Positions 20,200-56,447 of a DNA stretch of 61,015 nt are shown piece by piece. The translations under genes were made by a program, and so were the position numbers. The notes under the pieces were generated by a model that was given only the letters and a program-made list of their open reading frames with translations, had not been told where the DNA came from and made no database searches. Positions within the stretch are counted from its first letter, which is position 1; the number at the start of each line of letters is the position of its first letter. The stretch comes from a virus. The stretch is taken from positions 1 to 61,015 of the IMG/VR virus record IMGVR_UViG_3300017971_000307, one strand, 5' to 3'.

Positions 20200-20973
20200 A
20201 TGGCAACTGAAGAACAAGTCATAGATTCGACACGAAGAACAGTAGCTGATTTTGAGTCACCACGTAAATATGATGATGATTATTATAAGGATGCTATTGA
20301 AAGAGGTTTGCAGAAATTAAACTTCGATTTTGGTGAGTCTTATGCAATAGTTCCCGATGTTCCATTTGATCGTGTTTTCCTTCTTATAAAATTAGCTTCG
20401 ATAAACATGTGCTGGTTTCGTGCGTCAGAAGGTGCAACTGGTGATAGCGAAATAGAACATGTTGAAACAAAATACACAACAATAGCAGTGCCTAATCTTT
20501 CGGTTACTGACGGAAATACAGGAGATAGTCGCGGTCCAACATACTGGATGAAACTAGCTGATAAAATTCAAGAAGAATATGACAACGAAGTTGGAAGTTC
20601 AGCTGGTCAAAACCAAGGTTCAGAAGTTGAAATTGGAACTGTTAGAAGGATATCTCTTACTAACGGTGGTTATAGAAAACGTGTTTTGGATCCTGGATTA
20701 GATGCTGTTACCATTACAACTTTAGTTTCGGGTAACGATGTTACAATTTCTTGGTCAAAACTTCAAGTTGAAGATTTTTTCTCTTACGAAGTTGTTCGCT
20801 CTGAAGATGGAACCTTTGATGATGAAATTGTTATAAGAACAGAAACTGATATCCATGTCACAGAATATACCGATGAATCTGTTGTGTCTGGTACATGGTA
20901 TTACAGAGTAAAATCTGTAAATAGGAATTTTCTAAAAACAGATAGTTCAACATCAATAGCGGTGGTTCCATAA
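20200..20973 (+). CDS. head-tail connector with C-terminal Fn3-like domain
   Basis: The product is 257 aa. Residues 1-110 are helical and fit the DNA-packaging/adaptor type of neck protein. Residues 160-257 have the strand pattern and motifs of fibronectin type III (VTISWSKLQVEDFFSYEVVRSED... TWYYRVKSVN). Such Ig-like additions decorate the particle surface. Unusually there is no Shine-Dalgarno before the ATG at 20200 (TATCTTTAATCT), so initiation may be weak or depend on upstream translation. Its stop overlaps the next start by one base. Confidence 0.75.
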   Translation: MATEEQVIDSTRRTVADFESPRKYDDDYYKDAIERGLQKLNFDFGESYAIVPDVPFDRVFLLIKLASINMCWFRASEGATGDSEIEHVETKYTTIAVPNLSVTDGNTGDSRGPTYWMKLADKIQEEYDNEVGSSAGQNQGSEVEIGTVRRISLTNGGYRKRVLDPGLDAVTITTLVSGNDVTISWSKLQVEDFFSYEVVRSEDGTFDDEIVIRTETDIHVTEYTDESVVSGTWYYRVKSVNRNFLKTDSSTSIAVVP

Positions 20974-44955: not shown

Positions 44956-45375
44956 ATGAACGAAGTTGTTTCTATTGTTTTCAGTTATCAATTTATAATG
45001 ATAGGTCTTACCGTTGCATTTATGATTTTTCTTTTCTTTAGAATTGGTTCAATGCTTTGGTCTATTAATAATACAGCAATACGTGGTTTTTTAAGATTTA
45101 CATATGCGATATCACCATGGGTACCACCAATGATAGGTGCAATTGTTGGTGCTGTTCCTTACTGGCCAGCACCTGAAGCATTATCTTTTTTACCAGAGGA
45201 TCGACAATACTATGCGATGATCATACTCGGATTGTTTGCTGGTATTTTTTACGAACGTATTTGGAAGGGATTTAGACAAGTTATAAAAGCTCGAGGTGTC
45301 GATCTTAATATTGACTTGATTCCCAAAAAACAAATTGAGGGGGATACAAATGAACCGGGAGATTCGTCCACTTGA
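44956..45375 (+). CDS. small membrane protein, holin candidate
   Basis: The product is 139 aa from the ATG at 44956 (TTGGAGGTATTT just before; an upstream TTG at 44944 overlaps that site). Three hydrophobic segments: about 8-30 (FMIFLFFRI), 52-70 (PPMIGAIVGAVPYW) and 80-100 (YYAMIILGLFAGIFY). The C-terminus is charged. Size, three membrane segments and place after the virion genes suggest a holin, but no family signature was recognised. Confidence 0.6.
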   Translation: MNEVVSIVFSYQFIMIGLTVAFMIFLFFRIGSMLWSINNTAIRGFLRFTYAISPWVPPMIGAIVGAVPYWPAPEALSFLPEDRQYYAMIILGLFAGIFYERIWKGFRQVIKARGVDLNIDLIPKKQIEGDTNEPGDSST

Positions 45376-45832
45376 CATAACTTTTTCGACAGCATCTTCA
45401 AAGGCAGCAAAACAGCTATACGATCGGTTATGTCTAATCACGCACATAGGGGGAATTTGTACAAAGCTCATAAACAATACAGGTGTTCCGTCTGTTAGAG
45501 GGACATTAGTAAAAGCATGTTTAGCGAAAGATAGATGTTTTATATTAACTCCTCCGATATCGGATGAAGTTTTAGGTGTAGTTTATGATGATGGTGTTCA
45601 GCCAGGTGATGAGTGTAGAATAGTAATTGCAGGTGTAGCAGAACTTTTATTAAAAGATGGAACTGGCTCAATTAGAGGAAATAGAGCTGAAGTTTCTGAT
45701 ATTCCAGGTAGGGCTTTAGCAATAGGATTACACCCAAATCCTAATAATTCGTTAATAGAAGTGGGCCATATTTTAGAAAACAAAGCACCAGGTATTAATG
45801 TTTTGGCGCTTTGCTTCATGCAGTATTGTTAA
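45350..45832 (+). CDS. beta-rich small protein, paralogue of 48165-48695
   Basis: The product is 160 aa from the ATG at 45350 (GAGGGGGATACAA upstream). Its core is shared with the gene at 48165: GVVYDDGVQPGDECRIVIAG, LLKDGTGSIRGN, EVSDIPGRA and HILENK. Such Gly-rich beta modules resemble DUF2190-like capsid-decorating proteins, a weak link. It overlaps the holin candidate by 26 bp. Function unknown. Confidence 0.75.
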   Translation: MNREIRPLDITFSTASSKAAKQLYDRLCLITHIGGICTKLINNTGVPSVRGTLVKACLAKDRCFILTPPISDEVLGVVYDDGVQPGDECRIVIAGVAELLLKDGTGSIRGNRAEVSDIPGRALAIGLHPNPNNSLIEVGHILENKAPGINVLALCFMQYC

Positions 45833-45837
45833 AACAT

Positions 45838-45870
45838 AATGGTATGATTTTATCATTAAATCATACCATT
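45838..45870. repeat. 13-bp perfect inverted repeat
   Basis: AATGGTATGATTT (45838-45850) pairs with AAATCATACCATT (45858-45870) around TATCATT, 6 bp after the stop of the preceding gene. No T run follows on the plus strand. It could stabilise the message 3' end, act as a weak terminator or be an operator. Confidence 0.7.
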
Positions 45871-45952
45871 GTTGTGGAACGGGGTTGTTAGTATAAGATA
45901 CTGTATCATGTTCAATGAATATGTCAATATTTATTTTTATTTTATTTTTTTG

Positions 45953-45981
45953 TTGACAAACTGTTTTTTATTTGACATGAT
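45953..45981 (+). promoter_or_regulatory. promoter TTGACA-N17-CATGAT
   Basis: TTGACA 45953-45958, 17-nt spacer, CATGAT 45976-45981. The predicted transcript start near 45988 lies about 95 nt before a strong terminator (46053-46084), so the unit may make a short RNA or a leader. Confidence 0.55.
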
Positions 45982-46023
45982 GATATTAGTTTTTCTTATT
46001 AATATTTTTCTCATTTTTAGTTT

Positions 46024-46037
46024 TATGGTTTGAGTAG
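46024..46037. repeat. second copy of TATGGTTTGAGTAG
   Basis: Identical 14-nt sequence to 32819-32832. AGGGCT follows at 46053, 29 nt from the motif start (28 nt in the first copy). In this copy AGGGCT is the first arm of the terminator stem. Confidence 0.75.
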
Positions 46038-46052
46038 TAATATTCATGTTTT

Positions 46053-46084
46053 AGGGCTAAGTAGAAATGCTTAGCCCTTTTTTT
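46053..46084 (+). terminator. strong Rho-independent terminator
   Basis: AGGGCTAAG (46053-46061) pairs with CTTAGCCCT (46070-46078) around TAGAAATG, followed by TTTTTTT. It separates the preceding transcription unit from the DUF5662-like gene. Confidence 0.9.
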
Positions 46085-46105
46085 AGGTTAAACGAAAGGA
46101 TTTGT

Positions 46106-46615
46106 ATGATACACGTAAAACATGTTATTAAGTATATCAATTACATTTTAAAACATAAATGGTATGTTTTTTTGGAATGTTGTAAACTTGGCATTCTATG
46201 GCAGGGGATTACTCACGATCTTTCTAAATTTTCAAGAAAAGAATTTATTCCTTACATGAAAAAATATACCATAGGTTTAAAAGACGAAAAGACAGATTCC
46301 GATTTTTGTGAGGCTTGGCATCATCATATTGCTAAAAATCCACATCATTGGGAGCATTGGACTTACCTAGAAGTAAGTGAAACACCCAATGGTGAACAGG
46401 ATAAAGAAAATATTGCAATAAAAATGCCAAAGAGGTATGTAAAAGAAATGCTTGCTGATTGGAGGGCAATGTCAAAAACTTTTGGACAAAAAACAATAAT
46501 AGAATGGTATGAAAAAAATATTACAAAAATGGTTTTACATAATGAAACGCTTCAAGAGTTATATAAGTTATTTACGATAGAAGAAGTTTCTGAAATAATG
46601 AAAAACAAGTGTTGA
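46106..46615 (+). CDS. DUF5662-like protein
   Basis: The product is 169 aa from the ATG at 46106 (AAAGGATTTGT upstream); a longer frame to 46067 would start inside the terminator. It shows HDLSKFSRKEFIPYMKKY, AWHHHIAKNPHHWEHW and MPKRYVKEMLADWRAM, the His/Asp-rich pattern of DUF5662, a family of phage proteins of unknown role that may bind metal (HD-like). The promoter for it is not evident, because it lies just after a terminator. Confidence 0.85.
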   Translation: MIHVKHVIKYINYILKHKWYVFLECCKLGILWQGITHDLSKFSRKEFIPYMKKYTIGLKDEKTDSDFCEAWHHHIAKNPHHWEHWTYLEVSETPNGEQDKENIAIKMPKRYVKEMLADWRAMSKTFGQKTIIEWYEKNITKMVLHNETLQELYKLFTIEEVSEIMKNKC

Positions 46616-46640
46616 TATAACATAAAGAGTATGTCATATT
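46612..46640 (+). promoter_or_regulatory. promoter TTGATA-N17-CATATT
   Basis: TTGATA 46612-46617, 17-nt spacer ending ATGT, CATATT 46635-46640, then ATATATATAACAAGCAAGGAAAT. It closely matches the promoter at 419-447, including the ATATAACAARCAA leader. The leader runs into a 9-codon frame at 46677-46706, which is probably not a gene. Confidence 0.65.
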
Positions 46641-46800
46641 ATATATATAACAAGCAAGGAAATATCATGAAACAAGTTATTATTAAATTAAAATAAAATT
46701 TTATATAGTAGTTTTTCATGTAAGACCACCAAAAATAATTTGACAAAAAGCTTAAATATTGATACACATAATTAATGTAGTATTTCATAGCATTCTCCAA

Positions 46801-46833
46801 CAAAAGCCTGGTTTAGATAAAATCAGGCTTTTG
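46801..46833 (+). terminator. terminator of first micro-unit
   Basis: CAAAAGCCTG (46801-46810) pairs perfectly with CAGGCTTTTG (46824-46833), 13-nt loop, followed by CATTTT. With a TTGACA at 46740-46745 upstream (weak -10 at 46763) it would end a transcript of about 60 nt. Confidence 0.8.
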
Positions 46834-46844
46834 CATTTTAAAGG

Positions 46845-46873
46845 TTGACATTTTTGTCATAAACTGATAAAAA
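46845..46873 (+). promoter_or_regulatory. promoter TTGACA-N17-TAAAAA
   Basis: Consensus TTGACA at 46845-46850 and a weak -10 at 46868-46873, immediately after the terminator at 46801 and about 30 bp before the terminator hairpin at 46905. Confidence 0.45.
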
Positions 46874-46904
46874 TTTAGTATGTGTTAAATTGAGTTTGGC
46901 TTCA

Positions 46905-46942
46905 GAAAGCCGTTGGCACGGAATCCAACGGCTTTCGCTTTT
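46905..46942 (+). terminator. terminator of second micro-unit
   Basis: GAAAGCCGTTGG (46905-46916) pairs with CCAACGGCTTTC (46925-46936), 12-bp perfect stem, followed by GCTTTTT. The upstream GGCTTCAGAAAGCC can form a competing hairpin that would break the terminator, as in attenuators. Confidence 0.85.
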
Positions 46943-46947
46943 TAAAG

Positions 46948-46976
46948 ATTGACATTATTTCATTTTTAGGTTTATT
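46948..46976 (+). promoter_or_regulatory. promoter TTGACA-N17-TTATTA for the structured RNA
   Basis: TTGACA 46948-46953, 17-nt spacer, TTATTA 46971-46976 (TTATTATATT region). The predicted start is close to 46983, at the first hairpin of the structured segment. Confidence 0.6.
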
Positions 46977-46982
46977 ATATTT

Positions 46983-47440
46983 TTTGACGCACACCGTGGT
47001 GTGTCGGTTTTCCTTTAGGAGGAAAGAGTTTTGAAGCTAAACTTAAAAACAACGACACGGAATTTTTTTTCGATAGATTATGGTAGATCTATCAATATGC
47101 TTCGCCCTACCATTCTGGTATTATCAATCACTAAATTCTCGAATAAAAGAAAAACTTTTATACAGGCCTGCGCCGAATATTTTTCGGTGTGTCCTCTGAT
47201 AAAGGACGGGACACCGTTTGTTGGACCCCATCAAAATCCAACCATCCCCCCCCAACGGTGTGAGATTTATATTGATGATGACAGAAATAGATGCCCACAG
47301 TTTAAGATTCCTACCCAAATGGTCAGGGAATTTTAAAGCAAAGCATCGTTCCTTCTTTCCTAGCCTGGATGGCCTTGCAGATAGACCAGACCAGGGTTAA
47401 GGGGGGGGTCTATGTAGAGATGGAAAAATCTGCAAAAAAA
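46983..47440 (+). ncRNA. candidate large structured non-coding RNA (about 450 nt)
   Basis: The segment is visibly richer in G and C than its surroundings and dense in hairpins, while no frame looks like a phage protein. Visible pairings: GCACAC/GTGTGT at its start; CGGTGTGTCC with GGACGGGACACCG near 47188-47218; GTTGGA/TCCAAC at about 47219-47241; ATTCC/GGAAT near 47305-47332; CCTGG/CCAGG and ATAGACC/GGTCTAT at 47363-47413; and a long-range C8 (47246-47253) with G8 (47401-47408). It has its own promoter. A 101-codon TTG frame (47031-47336) overlaps it, but it has odd composition. Class unknown; giant phage RNAs such as GOLLD and ROOL are comparators only. Confidence 0.5.
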
Positions 47441-47448
47441 GGAGAGAA

Positions 47449-47913
47449 ATGAGTAAAAAAAACAAGATAACTTTTGAGCCAAATTATGAGAAACTAAAAG
47501 TAGCGAAAAGTGCTCTTAGAAAAAAAAGAGTTAATCGATGTGATGCTTTAAGAAAAATGACAGAACCACGTTATGATAAAATATATAAGGATGGAGTTAA
47601 GTGGCTCAATGATTTAGGTGGTGAAGTGAATTTGGATAAAGATAAAATAACAAGAGACCTTGAAAAAGCAAAATGTGAATCAGAGAAAAAGGTTAATGCA
47701 ATTGAACAAGAAAGATATGATAAAATGATGCATGATGTTTTTCATCGTATCGATTTGGCGGTAAAAAAATTAATGGATGATATTTCTGGACTCATATATG
47801 GAGGTGATGATCGTGAAGGTGTTCTTAATTTTGAAGGTTACAAAGATGGTTATGAAGAAGCGATTGAAGATGTCTTAGATATTTTGGAGGAGATAAAAAT
47901 TGACAACAGTTAA
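47449..47913 (+). CDS. hypothetical coiled-coil protein
   Basis: The product is 154 aa, highly charged and helical throughout, ending in an acidic tail (GYKDGYEEAIEDVLDILEEIK). The ATG follows AAAGGAGAGAA, directly after the structured segment. No family recognised. Its end overlaps the next gene. Confidence 0.75.
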   Translation: MSKKNKITFEPNYEKLKVAKSALRKKRVNRCDALRKMTEPRYDKIYKDGVKWLNDLGGEVNLDKDKITRDLEKAKCESEKKVNAIEQERYDKMMHDVFHRIDLAVKKLMDDISGLIYGGDDREGVLNFEGYKDGYEEAIEDVLDILEEIKIDNS

Positions 47914-48100
47914 AAATATGTTTGAGTTAATTAAATCATTAATTTGCAGGACAGTACCCAGCGAGAAGGAACAAACACGTTGTCGTGAAGCTAGTCATAG
48001 ACGGATTGTGGCAATGTTATCTCATGGAAATTTTGATTCATATTATACTAAAAGTGATATTGATTGTCTTAGGAGTAAAATTGACATGATGGAATTTTAA
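47900..48100 (+). CDS. small hypothetical protein (TTG start)
   Basis: The product is 66 aa starting at TTG 47900, with GAGGAG 7 nt upstream inside the previous gene. It is basic, with helical segments (KEQTRCREASHRRIVAM). An in-frame ATG at codon 7 is the alternative start. Function unknown. Confidence 0.6.
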   Translation: MTTVKNMFELIKSLICRTVPSEKEQTRCREASHRRIVAMLSHGNFDSYYTKSDIDCLRSKIDMMEF

Positions 48101-48164
48101 ATAAATTATTGTTATTAGATTTCTTTTTTTATTGATTGTATATTTTATAAGTGGAGGTTATCTG

Positions 48165-48695
48165 ATGACCATTAGAGAATTAGATGTAATGGAAGCAGCT
48201 GCTTCAGGTGTTGCAGCAAAAAGAGTAAAAGATGAACTTGATGGTTATGATAGCCGGATCACTGTTCTTGAAGGTAATCAAACAGATATCCAATCTCAAT
48301 TAACTCCAGAAGGTGGGATTGCTATTTATCTTACAAATAAAACTGGTTCTGCTTCCATTAAGGGAACAGTTATTGAAGCATCAGCAGGAACAGATAATTC
48401 ATTTGGTGTTGCACCAAGTAATGCTGTCGATCCTATTGGCGTTGTTTATGATGATGGAATTGCTGATGGAGAGCTTTGCAGGATTGTCGTCGCTGGTAGG
48501 GCACAGGTTTTGTTGAAGGATACAACGGGATCAACTCGAGGAAATTGGGTTGAGGTATCTGATGTAGCCGGAAGAGCAAATGCAACCTTGGCTAGTCCAA
48601 ATCAAGTAACACATTTTGCGGAAGTGGGACATTCTCTAGAAACCAAGACTGGTGGAACTAATGTTTTATTATTTTGTATGATACATTTTAATTAA
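48165..48695 (+). CDS. beta-rich small protein, paralogue of 45350-45832
   Basis: The product is 176 aa from ATG 48165 (GTGGAGGTTATCTG upstream). The first 55 residues are a helical coiled-coil arm (KRVKDELDGYDSRITVLEGN), then the shared module (GVVYDDGIADGELCRIVVAG, LLKDTTGSTRGN, EVSDVAGRA, HSLETK). The extra arm could trimerise it. The same module is used twice in the phage, so it is likely a real structural or decoration element. Confidence 0.78.
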   Translation: MTIRELDVMEAAASGVAAKRVKDELDGYDSRITVLEGNQTDIQSQLTPEGGIAIYLTNKTGSASIKGTVIEASAGTDNSFGVAPSNAVDPIGVVYDDGIADGELCRIVVAGRAQVLLKDTTGSTRGNWVEVSDVAGRANATLASPNQVTHFAEVGHSLETKTGGTNVLLFCMIHFN

Positions 48696-50487: not shown

Positions 50488-50779
50488 AAGTAATAAGACT
50501 ACTAGAATGCTTGATAAAGCTTATCGTTTTGCTATGGATGGATGTTCTGTTCTCGTAATGATACGTGATATGTCTTTTGCTTATTATTGTTTGGGAATAA
50601 TTGAAAAAATGGATAACATCGAATGTTTCGAGAAATTTATCACAGGTAATTCACCTTCGATAAAGTTTCAAAAAGGATCCATATCTTTTTTATCTGATGA
50701 AAGAATGAAAAGTATTTGGCTCCTTGGAAGAAAAAATACGAAGGTCTTATATGATCATCATTATCTTGATATTAAATAG
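50477..50779 (+). CDS. hypothetical protein
   Basis: The product is 100 aa. The pattern (KAYRFAMDGCSVLVMIRDMSFAYYC, IKFQKGSISFLSDERMKSIWLLG) resembles a small alpha/beta P-loop-derived fold without a Walker motif. It directly precedes the AAA+ loader gene. Function unknown. Confidence 0.7.
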   Translation: MDCESNKTTRMLDKAYRFAMDGCSVLVMIRDMSFAYYCLGIIEKMDNIECFEKFITGNSPSIKFQKGSISFLSDERMKSIWLLGRKNTKVLYDHHYLDIK

Positions 50780-50791
50780 AATGGTTTGATT

Positions 50792-51394
50792 ATGAAACTG
50801 AGCAAAGCTCACTATGAATACATGAATATTGGTAGGCGTTTTTGGGATGCCAATGTTTTTAATTTGAGACCTTCACAAAAAGAGGCTGTTAAGGATTATG
50901 TTAAGAGATTTAAATTTTTCATTTCTAAAGGCGTTGGTCTCTTTTTGTGGGGTCCAAATAGTTCAGGAAAAACATATGTTTCTGCAAGTCTATTAATACT
51001 CGCATGGGAAAGATGGCTTGTTTCGGGATATTGTGTTACAGCTGCTTCGTTAAAAGAAAATTTTGTCAAAGATATGCCTGTTGATTTTGGTAGCGAAGAA
51101 ACCGTTATAACTAGAGCTATTAGGTCGCAAATTTTGGTTATCGATGACTTAGGTAGAGAGCATCGATCGACCAGTGGTTTTGCAGAGAACAGGTTCGATA
51201 TGTTGCTTAGAGATAGATCTCGTGATTTAAACACAACAATTATTACCTCAAATTTAAATCCTGATGATTTTAGAGATATTTATGGAGTATCTTCATTTGA
51301 ATTGGTCAGAGAAAATATGCACTTTGTTAAATTGAATGGAGAAAATATCCGTGCAATAAAAGAGTGTGGTCTCAATAGATTCCTAAACCAATGA
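50792..51394 (+). CDS. DnaC-like AAA+ helicase loader
   Basis: The product is 200 aa, with Walker A LWGPNSSGKT (residues 52-61) and Walker B ILVIDDLG (114-121), plus a Sensor-1-like TIITSNL. Size and motifs fit phage DnaC/IstB-type loaders, which place the DnaB-like helicase at 53025 on DNA. The start at ATG 50792 is preferred over an upstream TTG. Its stop overlaps the next gene (ATGA). Confidence 0.88.
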   Translation: MKLSKAHYEYMNIGRRFWDANVFNLRPSQKEAVKDYVKRFKFFISKGVGLFLWGPNSSGKTYVSASLLILAWERWLVSGYCVTAASLKENFVKDMPVDFGSEETVITRAIRSQILVIDDLGREHRSTSGFAENRFDMLLRDRSRDLNTTIITSNLNPDDFRDIYGVSSFELVRENMHFVKLNGENIRAIKECGLNRFLNQ

Positions 51395-54502: not shown

Positions 54503-54765
54503 TGTTTTATATTGGAGAAAAGAGGGTTTACGTTTGGGAATGTAGATGTGGAAATATGAATAAAAATGAATTGCATGTAGATGTGTTTTTAGGCAATAAA
54601 CATATAAAGAGTGTTATTTGTCCGATATGTTATAGAGAGAAACCATCTTTAATTGGTCGTGTTTTACGAAAAAAGGTGGACAGTATAAAGTCTGGTTATT
54701 CTTTTTTGCGTTCAATGATTAATGGTGATTTTTTTGGTGATATAAAAATACAGGAGATAAAGTGA
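54499..54765 (+). CDS. zinc-ribbon hypothetical protein
   Basis: The product is 88 aa. WECRCGNMNKNE and VICPICYREK give two CxC/CxxC pairs, a zinc-ribbon pattern. The rest is basic. It overlaps the ThyX start (GTGA). Function unknown, likely nucleic-acid binding. Confidence 0.7.
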   Translation: MMFYIGEKRVYVWECRCGNMNKNELHVDVFLGNKHIKSVICPICYREKPSLIGRVLRKKVDSIKSGYSFLRSMINGDFFGDIKIQEIK

Positions 54766-56447
54766 CTAAATTAATTGAATCAAGTTATGAGATTTTAGAA
54801 TATCCAAGGAATATTCTAAAGCGCATCGAAATAGCAGCCAGGACTTGTTATAAAAGCGAGGATAAAATAACAGATACTAGTGCTGAAAAACTTGTTAGAA
54901 GTTTGATAAAACGCGGTCATATGGCTATGATCGAATTTGGCGGTGATGTTTCTGTAAAGTTTATATCGAACCGTGGTTTTTGTTACGATGATCAAACAGA
55001 AGTTTTAACTTATGATGGATGGAAAAAGTTTAAAGATATAAATGGGAATGACTTATTTTTAACCTTAAATATGGATACTAAAGAAGCAGAGTACCAAGAA
55101 AAAATTGGAATAACAATAGAAGACTGGGATGATGATCTTATTTGCGGTAAATCTACAATGGTAGATTTTGCTGTCACCCCAAATCATAGGATGGTTTGGT
55201 TCCATTATGATTCTAGAATTGATAAAAAATGGAAGGTTGATCAAGCAAAAGAAATATATGGAAGAAGAGTGAAGTTTAAAAGAGGTTTATTCAAAGAAAT
55301 GCCTGATAGAACCTTATGTGAAGATTCTAAGTATCTCAATCTTCATCCGCAAATATCAACAATTCCGTTTGCTAAATTCATGGGTTTGTTTATAACAGAT
55401 GGCACTTTATGGAAAGGTAAAGATTCTGGAGGAAGGGTTACTATTTGTCAGATAAAAGAATCTGGCAGAATTTATATTAAAACTGTGTTGGAAGAGCTTG
55501 GTTGGAAATATTCAGAGAAAAAAGATGGGTTAAGAATAAACGATACTAAACTATATAAGTTTATGAGAATATTTTTCCCATTAGATGAGAAGAAAACGTA
55601 TACTGGTAGAATCCCACATTTTATAAGGCATGCATCAAGAAAATACATTCAAGCATTTCTAGATGGTGCAATTGTTGGTGATGGAAATATTCATAAGACT
55701 AATGGTCATAGAATAATATATACCGCCAGTCAGAAAATGGCTGGTGATTACCAAGAGTTATTTATGAAAGCTGGTTTTTGTGCATCGGTAAGAATTGATA
55801 ATAGAGTCGGGCGAAAAAGAGAAATCAAACCTGGTATAGTAATAGAGAATAAAGTGAGTCAATATGTTGTTTCTGTTACAGATAGAACTGATGAACACTT
55901 ATTCAATAAACAACATTGGAGCAAAGCTTATTATAAAGGCAAAGTCTATTGTGTAACAGTTCCGAATGGAACATTGTACGTCAGAAGAAATGGTAAAGCT
56001 TTTTGGTCAGGTAATACACACGAGATGGTTCGCCATAGATTATGTTCTTTTGCGCAGGAAAGTACTCGTTATTGTAACTATGGCAAAGGTAAATTTGGTA
56101 AAGAGATAACAGTTTGTTATCCACATGATATTATTGATATGAGGATACCAGATATATCAAATGGTCTTAGATGGGATATAATTTATAAAATACTTGGTTC
56201 GTGGAAAAAATCTGAAGAAGAATATCTTAGCTTGATTGAAATGGGTTGCCCTGCTGAGATTGCTCGTGAGGTTTTACCCATTGGTTTAAAAGCTGAAATA
56301 GTTGTATCTGCTAATGTTAGAGAATGGCGTCATATATTCAAGCTTCGTACATCTAAAAAAGCACATCCAAGAATGAGAGAATTAATGATTCCTCTTTTGT
56401 CAGACTTTAAATCTCTTATGCCAGTTGTCTTTGAAGATATTGAATAA
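54762..56447 (+). CDS. thyX: flavin-dependent thymidylate synthase ThyX with intein
   Basis: The precursor is 561 aa, start GTG 54762 (AGGAGATAAA). Residues 1-73 and 419-561 make a 216-aa ThyX: RTCYKSEDK, HMAMIEFG, then THEMVRHRLCSFAQESTRY carrying the RHRxxS signature (R424-H425-R426, S429). It makes dTMP from dUMP with FAD and methylenetetrahydrofolate. A 345-aa intein (54981-56015) interrupts it four residues before the RHR motif region, so splicing is required for activity. Confidence 0.93.
   Translation: MTKLIESSYEILEYPRNILKRIEIAARTCYKSEDKITDTSAEKLVRSLIKRGHMAMIEFGGDVSVKFISNRGFCYDDQTEVLTYDGWKKFKDINGNDLFLTLNMDTKEAEYQEKIGITIEDWDDDLICGKSTMVDFAVTPNHRMVWFHYDSRIDKKWKVDQAKEIYGRRVKFKRGLFKEMPDRTLCEDSKYLNLHPQISTIPFAKFMGLFITDGTLWKGKDSGGRVTICQIKESGRIYIKTVLEELGWKYSEKKDGLRINDTKLYKFMRIFFPLDEKKTYTGRIPHFIRHASRKYIQAFLDGAIVGDGNIHKTNGHRIIYTASQKMAGDYQELFMKAGFCASVRIDNRVGRKREIKPGIVIENKVSQYVVSVTDRTDEHLFNKQHWSKAYYKGKVYCVTVPNGTLYVRRNGKAFWSGNTHEMVRHRLCSFAQESTRYCNYGKGKFGKEITVCYPHDIIDMRIPDISNGLRWDIIYKILGSWKKSEEEYLSLIEMGCPAEIAREVLPIGLKAEIVVSANVREWRHIFKLRTSKKAHPRMRELMIPLLSDFKSLMPVVFEDIE
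54981..56015 (+). mobile_element. intein with LAGLIDADG-type endonuclease in ThyX
   Basis: It begins with Cys74 (CYDDQTEVLTYDGW, block A), has the TPNH block B, two LAGLIDADG-like motifs (FMGLFITDGTLW and FLDGAIVGDGN) and ends in NGTLYVRRNGKAFWSGN with Thr419 as the first C-extein residue. The penultimate residue is Gly, not the usual His, a known variant. The acidic residues of both LAGLIDADG-like motifs are present, so homing activity is plausible. Confidence 0.92.

Follow-up and report, generated by a model that had tools for sequence, protein, structure and literature searches.

A GC-rich segment at positions 46983-47448 of the virus record IMGVR_UViG_3300017971_000307 is tentatively read here as a structured 5' leader that codes for no protein and belongs to a small accessory operon (genes 47449 and 47900), located in extra DNA of the phage's likely lysis region. 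All coordinates are positions in the whole stretch of 61,015 bases, here called the window. The original prediction for this locus was a large structured non-coding RNA. Its non-coding and structured character held up, as judged by flat GC across codon positions, codon scores like those of spurious frames and fold statistics, whereas a stand-alone RNA is the less likely reading.

The segment had been singled out as about 450 nt richer in G and C than its surroundings, and base composition agrees with this: GC content is 0.418 at 46983-47448 compared with 0.237 at 46401-46800, 0.315 at 47501-47900, and 0.338 in the window. GC values as high as this are also found in some late genes. A promoter had been proposed at the start of the segment, and there is indeed a promoter-like site there (Table 1), which can alternatively be read with a 17-nt spacer and TTATTA. 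This site is the top-scoring one across 45800-48200, a region without a general excess of promoter-like sites (18 observed, 13.4 ± 3.6 expected). Transcription from it is predicted to start near 46985. Further upstream lie hairpin-promoter modules whose hairpin-to-promoter junction is duplicated (46826-46855 and 46930-46959; 30 nt, 87% identical). Similar upstream elements (ATGTCATATT...ATATATAACAA) are present at 419-470, before gene 479, and at 46612-46660, before a possible 9-codon ORF (46667); they perhaps represent a phage promoter class.

At least six plausible stems had been proposed for the segment, and folding predicts more than six. A transcript starting at the last promoter would open with H1. 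In the adjacent H2, the probability of the local pairing of UUUUCCUUU with AGGAGGAAAG ranges from 0.02 to 0.90, and that of its distal pairing with AAAGGAGAG, in the Shine-Dalgarno region, falls from 0.95 to 0.00-0.10 once at least 52 nt of the gene are added. The helices of domain A form with probabilities of 0.77-0.98 in seven contexts, and those of domains A and B together hold 0.61-0.99 irrespective of whether the RNA ends at 47448, 47500, 47600, or 47913. The 3' part (47349-47448) is ambiguous, with context-dependent helices at 0.15-0.86. The C8 and G8 runs, predicted to pair over a long range, are complementary, and the window contains no other G or C runs of at least 7. Their duplex is worth -19.0 kcal/mol, compared with 2.6-3.9 kcal/mol needed to free both runs, the pseudoknot penalty being excluded from this balance. 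We also considered a small upstream transcript as an antisense RNA to domain A through 9 complementary nucleotides and rejected it, as 31 of 200 shuffles equal this complementarity.

Table 1. Predicted features in and around the segment (SD, Shine-Dalgarno; P, pair probability).
Feature	Position	Strand	Remarks
Terminator-like hairpin	46801..46833	+	14-nt arms, 93% complementary; missed by terminator scan
Promoter-like site	46845..46874	+	TTGACA, 18 nt, AAAAAT; 10/12 consensus matches
Intrinsic-terminator-like hairpin	46905..46936	+	12 perfect pairs, then T run
Promoter-like site for the leader	46949..46978	+	TTGACA, 18 nt, TATTAT; 11/12 consensus matches
H1, 5'-terminal hairpin	46984..47007	+	P 0.57-0.94 in five contexts; also flagged as terminator-like
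H2 hairpin	47008..47027	+	UUUUCCUUU can pair with local AGGAGGAAAG or, solely in an RNA that stops at about 47448, with distal AAAGGAGAG
101-codon frame, TTG start	47031..47336	+	AGGAGG 8 nt before TTG; judged non-coding
H3 hairpin	47072..47093	+	8 pairs; P 0.90-0.98 in seven contexts
Domain A	47113..47286	+	long closing helix, four-hairpin junction, 56 nested pairs
C8	47246..47253	+	unpaired at about 95% in nested ensemble; located in an 11-nt domain A bulge
Domain B hairpin	47290..47347	+	5 + 12 + 3 pairs; P 0.61-0.99 in seven contexts; z -5.3 with chosen boundaries
Pyrimidine tract	47353..47361	+	alternative partners: G8, or SD of gene 47449 (P about 0.86 with the full gene present)
G8	47401..47408	+	partner of C8 in proposed pseudoknot
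SD region (AGGAGAGAA) of gene 47449	47440..47448	+	last few bases of the segment
Gene 47449, 154-aa frame	47449..47913	+	predicted mostly helical; first gene after the leader
66-aa frame (47900)	47900..48100	+	overlaps end of gene 47449

A terminator scan returned no terminator-like site from 47008 to the ATG at 47449, and the 3' end of the segment carries the SD of the gene that follows; a 5' leader is therefore a simpler explanation than a stand-alone RNA. Because the same scan overlooked the 46801-46833 hairpin, its negative result between 47008 and 47449 carries little weight. Frame 47900 is likely to share a transcript with gene 47449. For the product of gene 47449 we detected no family at E 0.001 and no match in phages or GTDB contigs, and its single-sequence structure model is of low confidence (mean pLDDT 48).

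It is rather unlikely, in our judgment, that the segment encodes a large, independent non-coding RNA of a new class, one that would be abundant in infection, like GOLLD, ROOL, and the ICP1 transcript, and would obtain its 3' end by processing near 47448. The segment has its own promoter-like site, lacks a coding signature and contains the defined domains A and B. In addition, a 9-pair helix (47008-47016 with 47438-47446) could close the RNA if it ended there (P 0.89-0.95). However, this helix is strong only in sequence cut at 47448 and is lost once the gene is included, for which reason we left it out of the model. The 3' end, where no terminator-like site was found, resembles an ordinary SD before an ATG.

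Rfam also speaks against this alternative. No match reached the gathering threshold anywhere in the window. With the threshold relaxed to E 5, 46640-47500 gave eight matches, none of which came close to its gathering score (best E 0.31), and GOLLD was absent among them. As stated in the original prediction, the segment thus could not be matched to GOLLD or ROOL; with no match to either model at the gathering threshold, we conclude that it is neither. A known riboswitch or other cis-regulatory leader was dismissed likewise, no curated Rfam model having matched at the gathering threshold. Neither a tRNA nor a tmRNA was found, with zero tRNA genes in the 61,015 bases of a record that may be a fragment.

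A precedent for a stand-alone RNA comes from phage ICP1. This phage is reported to produce an abundant non-coding RNA of about 800 nt from ORF-less space between gp139, with which the lysis cluster begins, and gp140, and has no phage tRNAs (PMC7567579). It is the nearest parallel in setting, since our segment also is ORF-less, adjoins putative lysis genes and occurs in a phage without tRNA genes, but the ICP1 RNA is longer and was seen by RNA-seq, whereas ours is a prediction from sequence. GOLLD RNAs, many of which exceed 800 nt, and ROOL RNAs are both often found near tRNA islands, and pseudoknots are predicted in ROOL (PMC12286853). Both resemble the segment in being phage-encoded; GOLLD is in addition large, structured and of unknown function, and ROOL shares with it multiple stems, the pseudoknots being predicted in ROOL and one being proposed here. 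They differ in having Rfam models of their own and in their frequent tRNA-island context; the 460-nt segment matches neither model, and the window has no tRNA gene. Further hallmarks are a homo-oligomeric nanocage for GOLLD and, for ROOL, kissing loops and pseudoknots that are conserved and backed by covariation, to which a possible C8:G8 pairing would be the counterpart here. A looser parallel is provided by the two lncRNAs of phage K, seen by RNA-seq and likened by the authors to GOLLD and ROOL for their proximity to tRNA genes (PMC9241854). Like the segment, they are intergenic phage RNAs of unknown function, but their setting is different.

The only homologue recovered in the searches that we ran is a second, identical copy of this phage on IMG/VR contig 3300017963_000302. 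Viral-contig searches with the protein 47449 and with the neighboring DUF5662 protein retrieved this copy only, as did three DNA patterns taken from the segment, exact patterns reaching only near relatives. A covariance model of domain A (R1), which was built on two identical rows and therefore also reaches only near relatives, gave one match in 18 records, again the same phage, and within the window found only itself. In 17 other records, most of them fragments, the best DNA match to the segment had an E-value of 0.32 and the covariance model had no match. Blastn of 46640-48150 against phages gave no match. With the 466-base segment as query and an E-value limit of 10, 26 phage records were returned, the best 20 of which all had E-values of at least 2, about chance. 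A 20- or 21-mer common to a group of Escherichia phages is among the matches listed, and an organism tally of the 26 records contains no Vibrio phages. Three plasmid records gave matches, all confined to the A+T-rich DNA that precedes the segment. A literature search, which an unnamed RNA would escape, yielded no description of this RNA.

The genomic setting departs from the original prediction, which placed the segment between lysis and replication regions. It instead seems to lie within the lysis region, with a putative membrane-protein gene (44944) and putative spanin-like genes (48705 and 49027) on either side. The labels membrane protein, spanin-like, lysis and cassette were assigned from position and sequence; BLAST gave no link between 44953 and the membrane proteins of relatives, and the link is made by position. 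The terminase has relatives at 56-61% identity and one at 36%, and the syntenic region is present in four long relatives of 104-113 kb (G012, G013, G014, and G017). With a small frame set and composition correction off, the anchor genes 44496 and 49027 were matched in all four, with E-values no higher than 5e-23 and 1.3e-10, respectively, and 48705 in three (E 6e-4 or better) and weakly in the fourth (E 0.049).

From the end of 44496 to the start of 49027, the relatives have about 0.7 kb (two of them), 0.9 kb, and 2.0 kb, compared with 4.2 kb here. Our phage thus carries 3.2-3.4 kb of extra DNA relative to three of them and 2.2 kb relative to the fourth, which has a 431-aa frame of its own between the anchors. 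The extra DNA contains the paralogous genes 45350 and 48165 (intervals 45335-45832 and 48132-48695; 42% amino-acid identity), which flank a DUF5662 family gene (46106-46615; Pfam E 2.5e-39), the hairpin-promoter modules, the segment and the accessory genes 47449 and 47900. A search of phages with the protein at 48132 returned nothing.

Some observations concern other parts of these genomes. The ThyX-like frame at 54762-56447, a label given from reading the sequence, looks intein-interrupted, and the terminase of one relative (L009/L026) has a long in-frame insertion that is intein-like in appearance. A stretch of about 1.3 kb at 1108-2412 is devoid of a convincing gene; its first part (1108-1480) is strongly G-poor (G 0.054, C 0.273) and contains short direct repeats, two C6 runs and tandem units of 10 and 20 nt. 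The stretch looks like a replication-origin or terminus region.

Folding energies place the segment well below its shuffled versions, with a minimum free energy of -135.6 kcal/mol, a z-score of -3.54 and none of 100 shuffles as low. In a comparison with 105 intervals of 464 nt from the same phage, taken from 12001 on, the segment reached a z-score of -3.63 (mean -1.0, sd 1.4). Three of these intervals were as low or lower, one of which (46801-47264) includes the upstream terminators as well as a large portion of the segment. The excess stability resides in the 5' two thirds, and a few other phage intervals likewise fold more stably than shuffles. The 3' part (47346-47411), with a z-score of +0.47, does not exceed its shuffles in stability. 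Taken as a whole, the segment is about equally stable on the minus strand (z -3.53); for domain A alone, the plus strand is favored (z -5.15 versus -2.46). This value, the z-score of about -5.2 obtained for domain A and that of domain B all refer to boundaries picked after folding. The unbiased 175-nt interval nearest domain A has a z-score of -3.88, and 16 of 716 such intervals reach -4 or lower (16 shuffles each).

Bases with a partner at a probability above 0.8 make up a share of 0.45 of the segment, compared with a genome mean of 0.22. This share is matched by 2 of 131 intervals, one of them overlapping, and by 1 of 150 shuffles. Ensemble entropy is equalled by 15 of 131 intervals and 9 of 150 shuffles, and base-pair distance by 12 and 7, respectively. 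The second most stable of the 105 intervals, 50513-50976 (z -4.93), lies where genes 50477 and 50786 meet.

These statistics bear directly on the reading of the segment as an ordinary, functionless intergenic leader or spacer that came with the gain of the accessory cassette and has the structure expected of such sequence. The absence of the segment from the relatives is consistent with it, just four of which hold the syntenic region, as are the three equally stable intervals, the similar folding of both strands and the unremarkable 3' part. The SD of gene 47449 adds to this, because its burial is ordinary for the phage: it is outside the 12 most buried among 46 gene starts, and an upstream complement of at least 9 pairs occurs at 9 of the 46, 47449 included. 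The strongly paired share argues against a mere spacer, however, as does the co-occurrence of C8 and G8, for which a first-order Markov estimate gives about 1.4e-5 expected chance occurrences within 200 nt. On balance, we consider a spacer unlikely.

Returning to the 5' leader, the fold suggests how it might influence gene 47449. The RNA would begin near 46985 and continue through into the gene. Domain A would display C8 in its bulge and the 3' part would display G8 in a loop, while the pyrimidine tract at 47353-47361 would lock the SD into the base stem of the 3' part. The C8:G8 pseudoknot may then steady this closed state and keep translation of 47449 low. With C8 and G8 apart, G8 could compete for the pyrimidine tract and the SD would be more easily freed; a host factor, the ribosome, temperature or a metabolite are candidate triggers of such opening. 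The calculated cost of exposing the SD is 3.9-8.6 kcal/mol when both runs are kept unpaired to mimic the pseudoknot, and 1.7-3.2 kcal/mol otherwise; the pseudoknot would thus make the closed state harder to leave, and losing it would ease opening. Most of the SD pairing persists without the pseudoknot when the full gene is included, and these calculations therefore do not demonstrate an on/off switch. The 3' part, which would have to carry this control, has a fold no better than expected by chance.

Translational riboswitches and RNA thermometers are structured leaders in which the SD is sequestered. The logic proposed here, in which an upstream domain would affect access to the SD, is shared with them, but our segment comes without a ligand, conservation or a family match. 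A bolder version of the leader reading describes a new class of large phage RNA, in which a three-domain leader controls access to the SD of an orphan gene in a lysis-region cassette through an unusually strong long-range pseudoknot between the C8 bulge and the G8 loop. We regard this version as improbable.

That the segment has no frame resembling a phage protein proved correct at the level of significance. The single candidate, the 101-codon frame at 47031-47336, was worth testing because AGGAGG precedes its TTG at a good spacing and because a frame of this length is rare in shuffles (3.3% of 2000 when both strands are considered and 1.3% of 2000 for the plus strand). The frame is most likely non-coding. 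Its GC content by codon position is flat (0.39/0.40/0.40), whereas GC3 is 0.19-0.35 in 11 genes compared. Its codon score of -0.17 lies below the 0.07-0.48 of 16 in-frame small genes, indicating non-phage codon usage, and falls among the values of 39 spurious frames (mean -0.10, sd 0.30). One of the 16 genes (20200-20973) was also in the training set, 48166-48695 was left out as out of frame (the right frame starts at 48165), and the spurious set may include a few real genes.

Residues of about 48-92 weakly match a family of base-plate tail-tube proteins, with E-values of 0.036 in PHROGs, 0.2 in Pfam and 0.003 in a search of this family against the phage's own genome alone. We take this match as chance, with a relic as the alternative. 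Homologue searches with the 101-aa frame gave only chance-level matches in phages, none in GTDB contigs or the PDB, and only the same phage in IMG/VR, and its single-sequence structure model has a pLDDT of 33. A protein-coding gene acquired from elsewhere, to which the SD-like motif, the frame length and the tail-tube match would point, is therefore very improbable in view of its composition, codon score, lack of homologues and poor model. We give almost no credence to an element acting as DNA and not as RNA (packaging, replication or hypermutable C8/G8 tracts), for although such long G/C homopolymer runs are unique in the window, both keep their lengths in the other copy of this phage, the layout of promoter, SD and gene fits an mRNA, and no tandem repeats were reported in the segment.

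If real, the structured leader would add one more orphan structured RNA to the few large phage RNAs known. Its setting, in a lysis region of a phage without tRNA genes, would be like that of the ICP1 RNA, which would make lysis regions worth searching for such RNAs.
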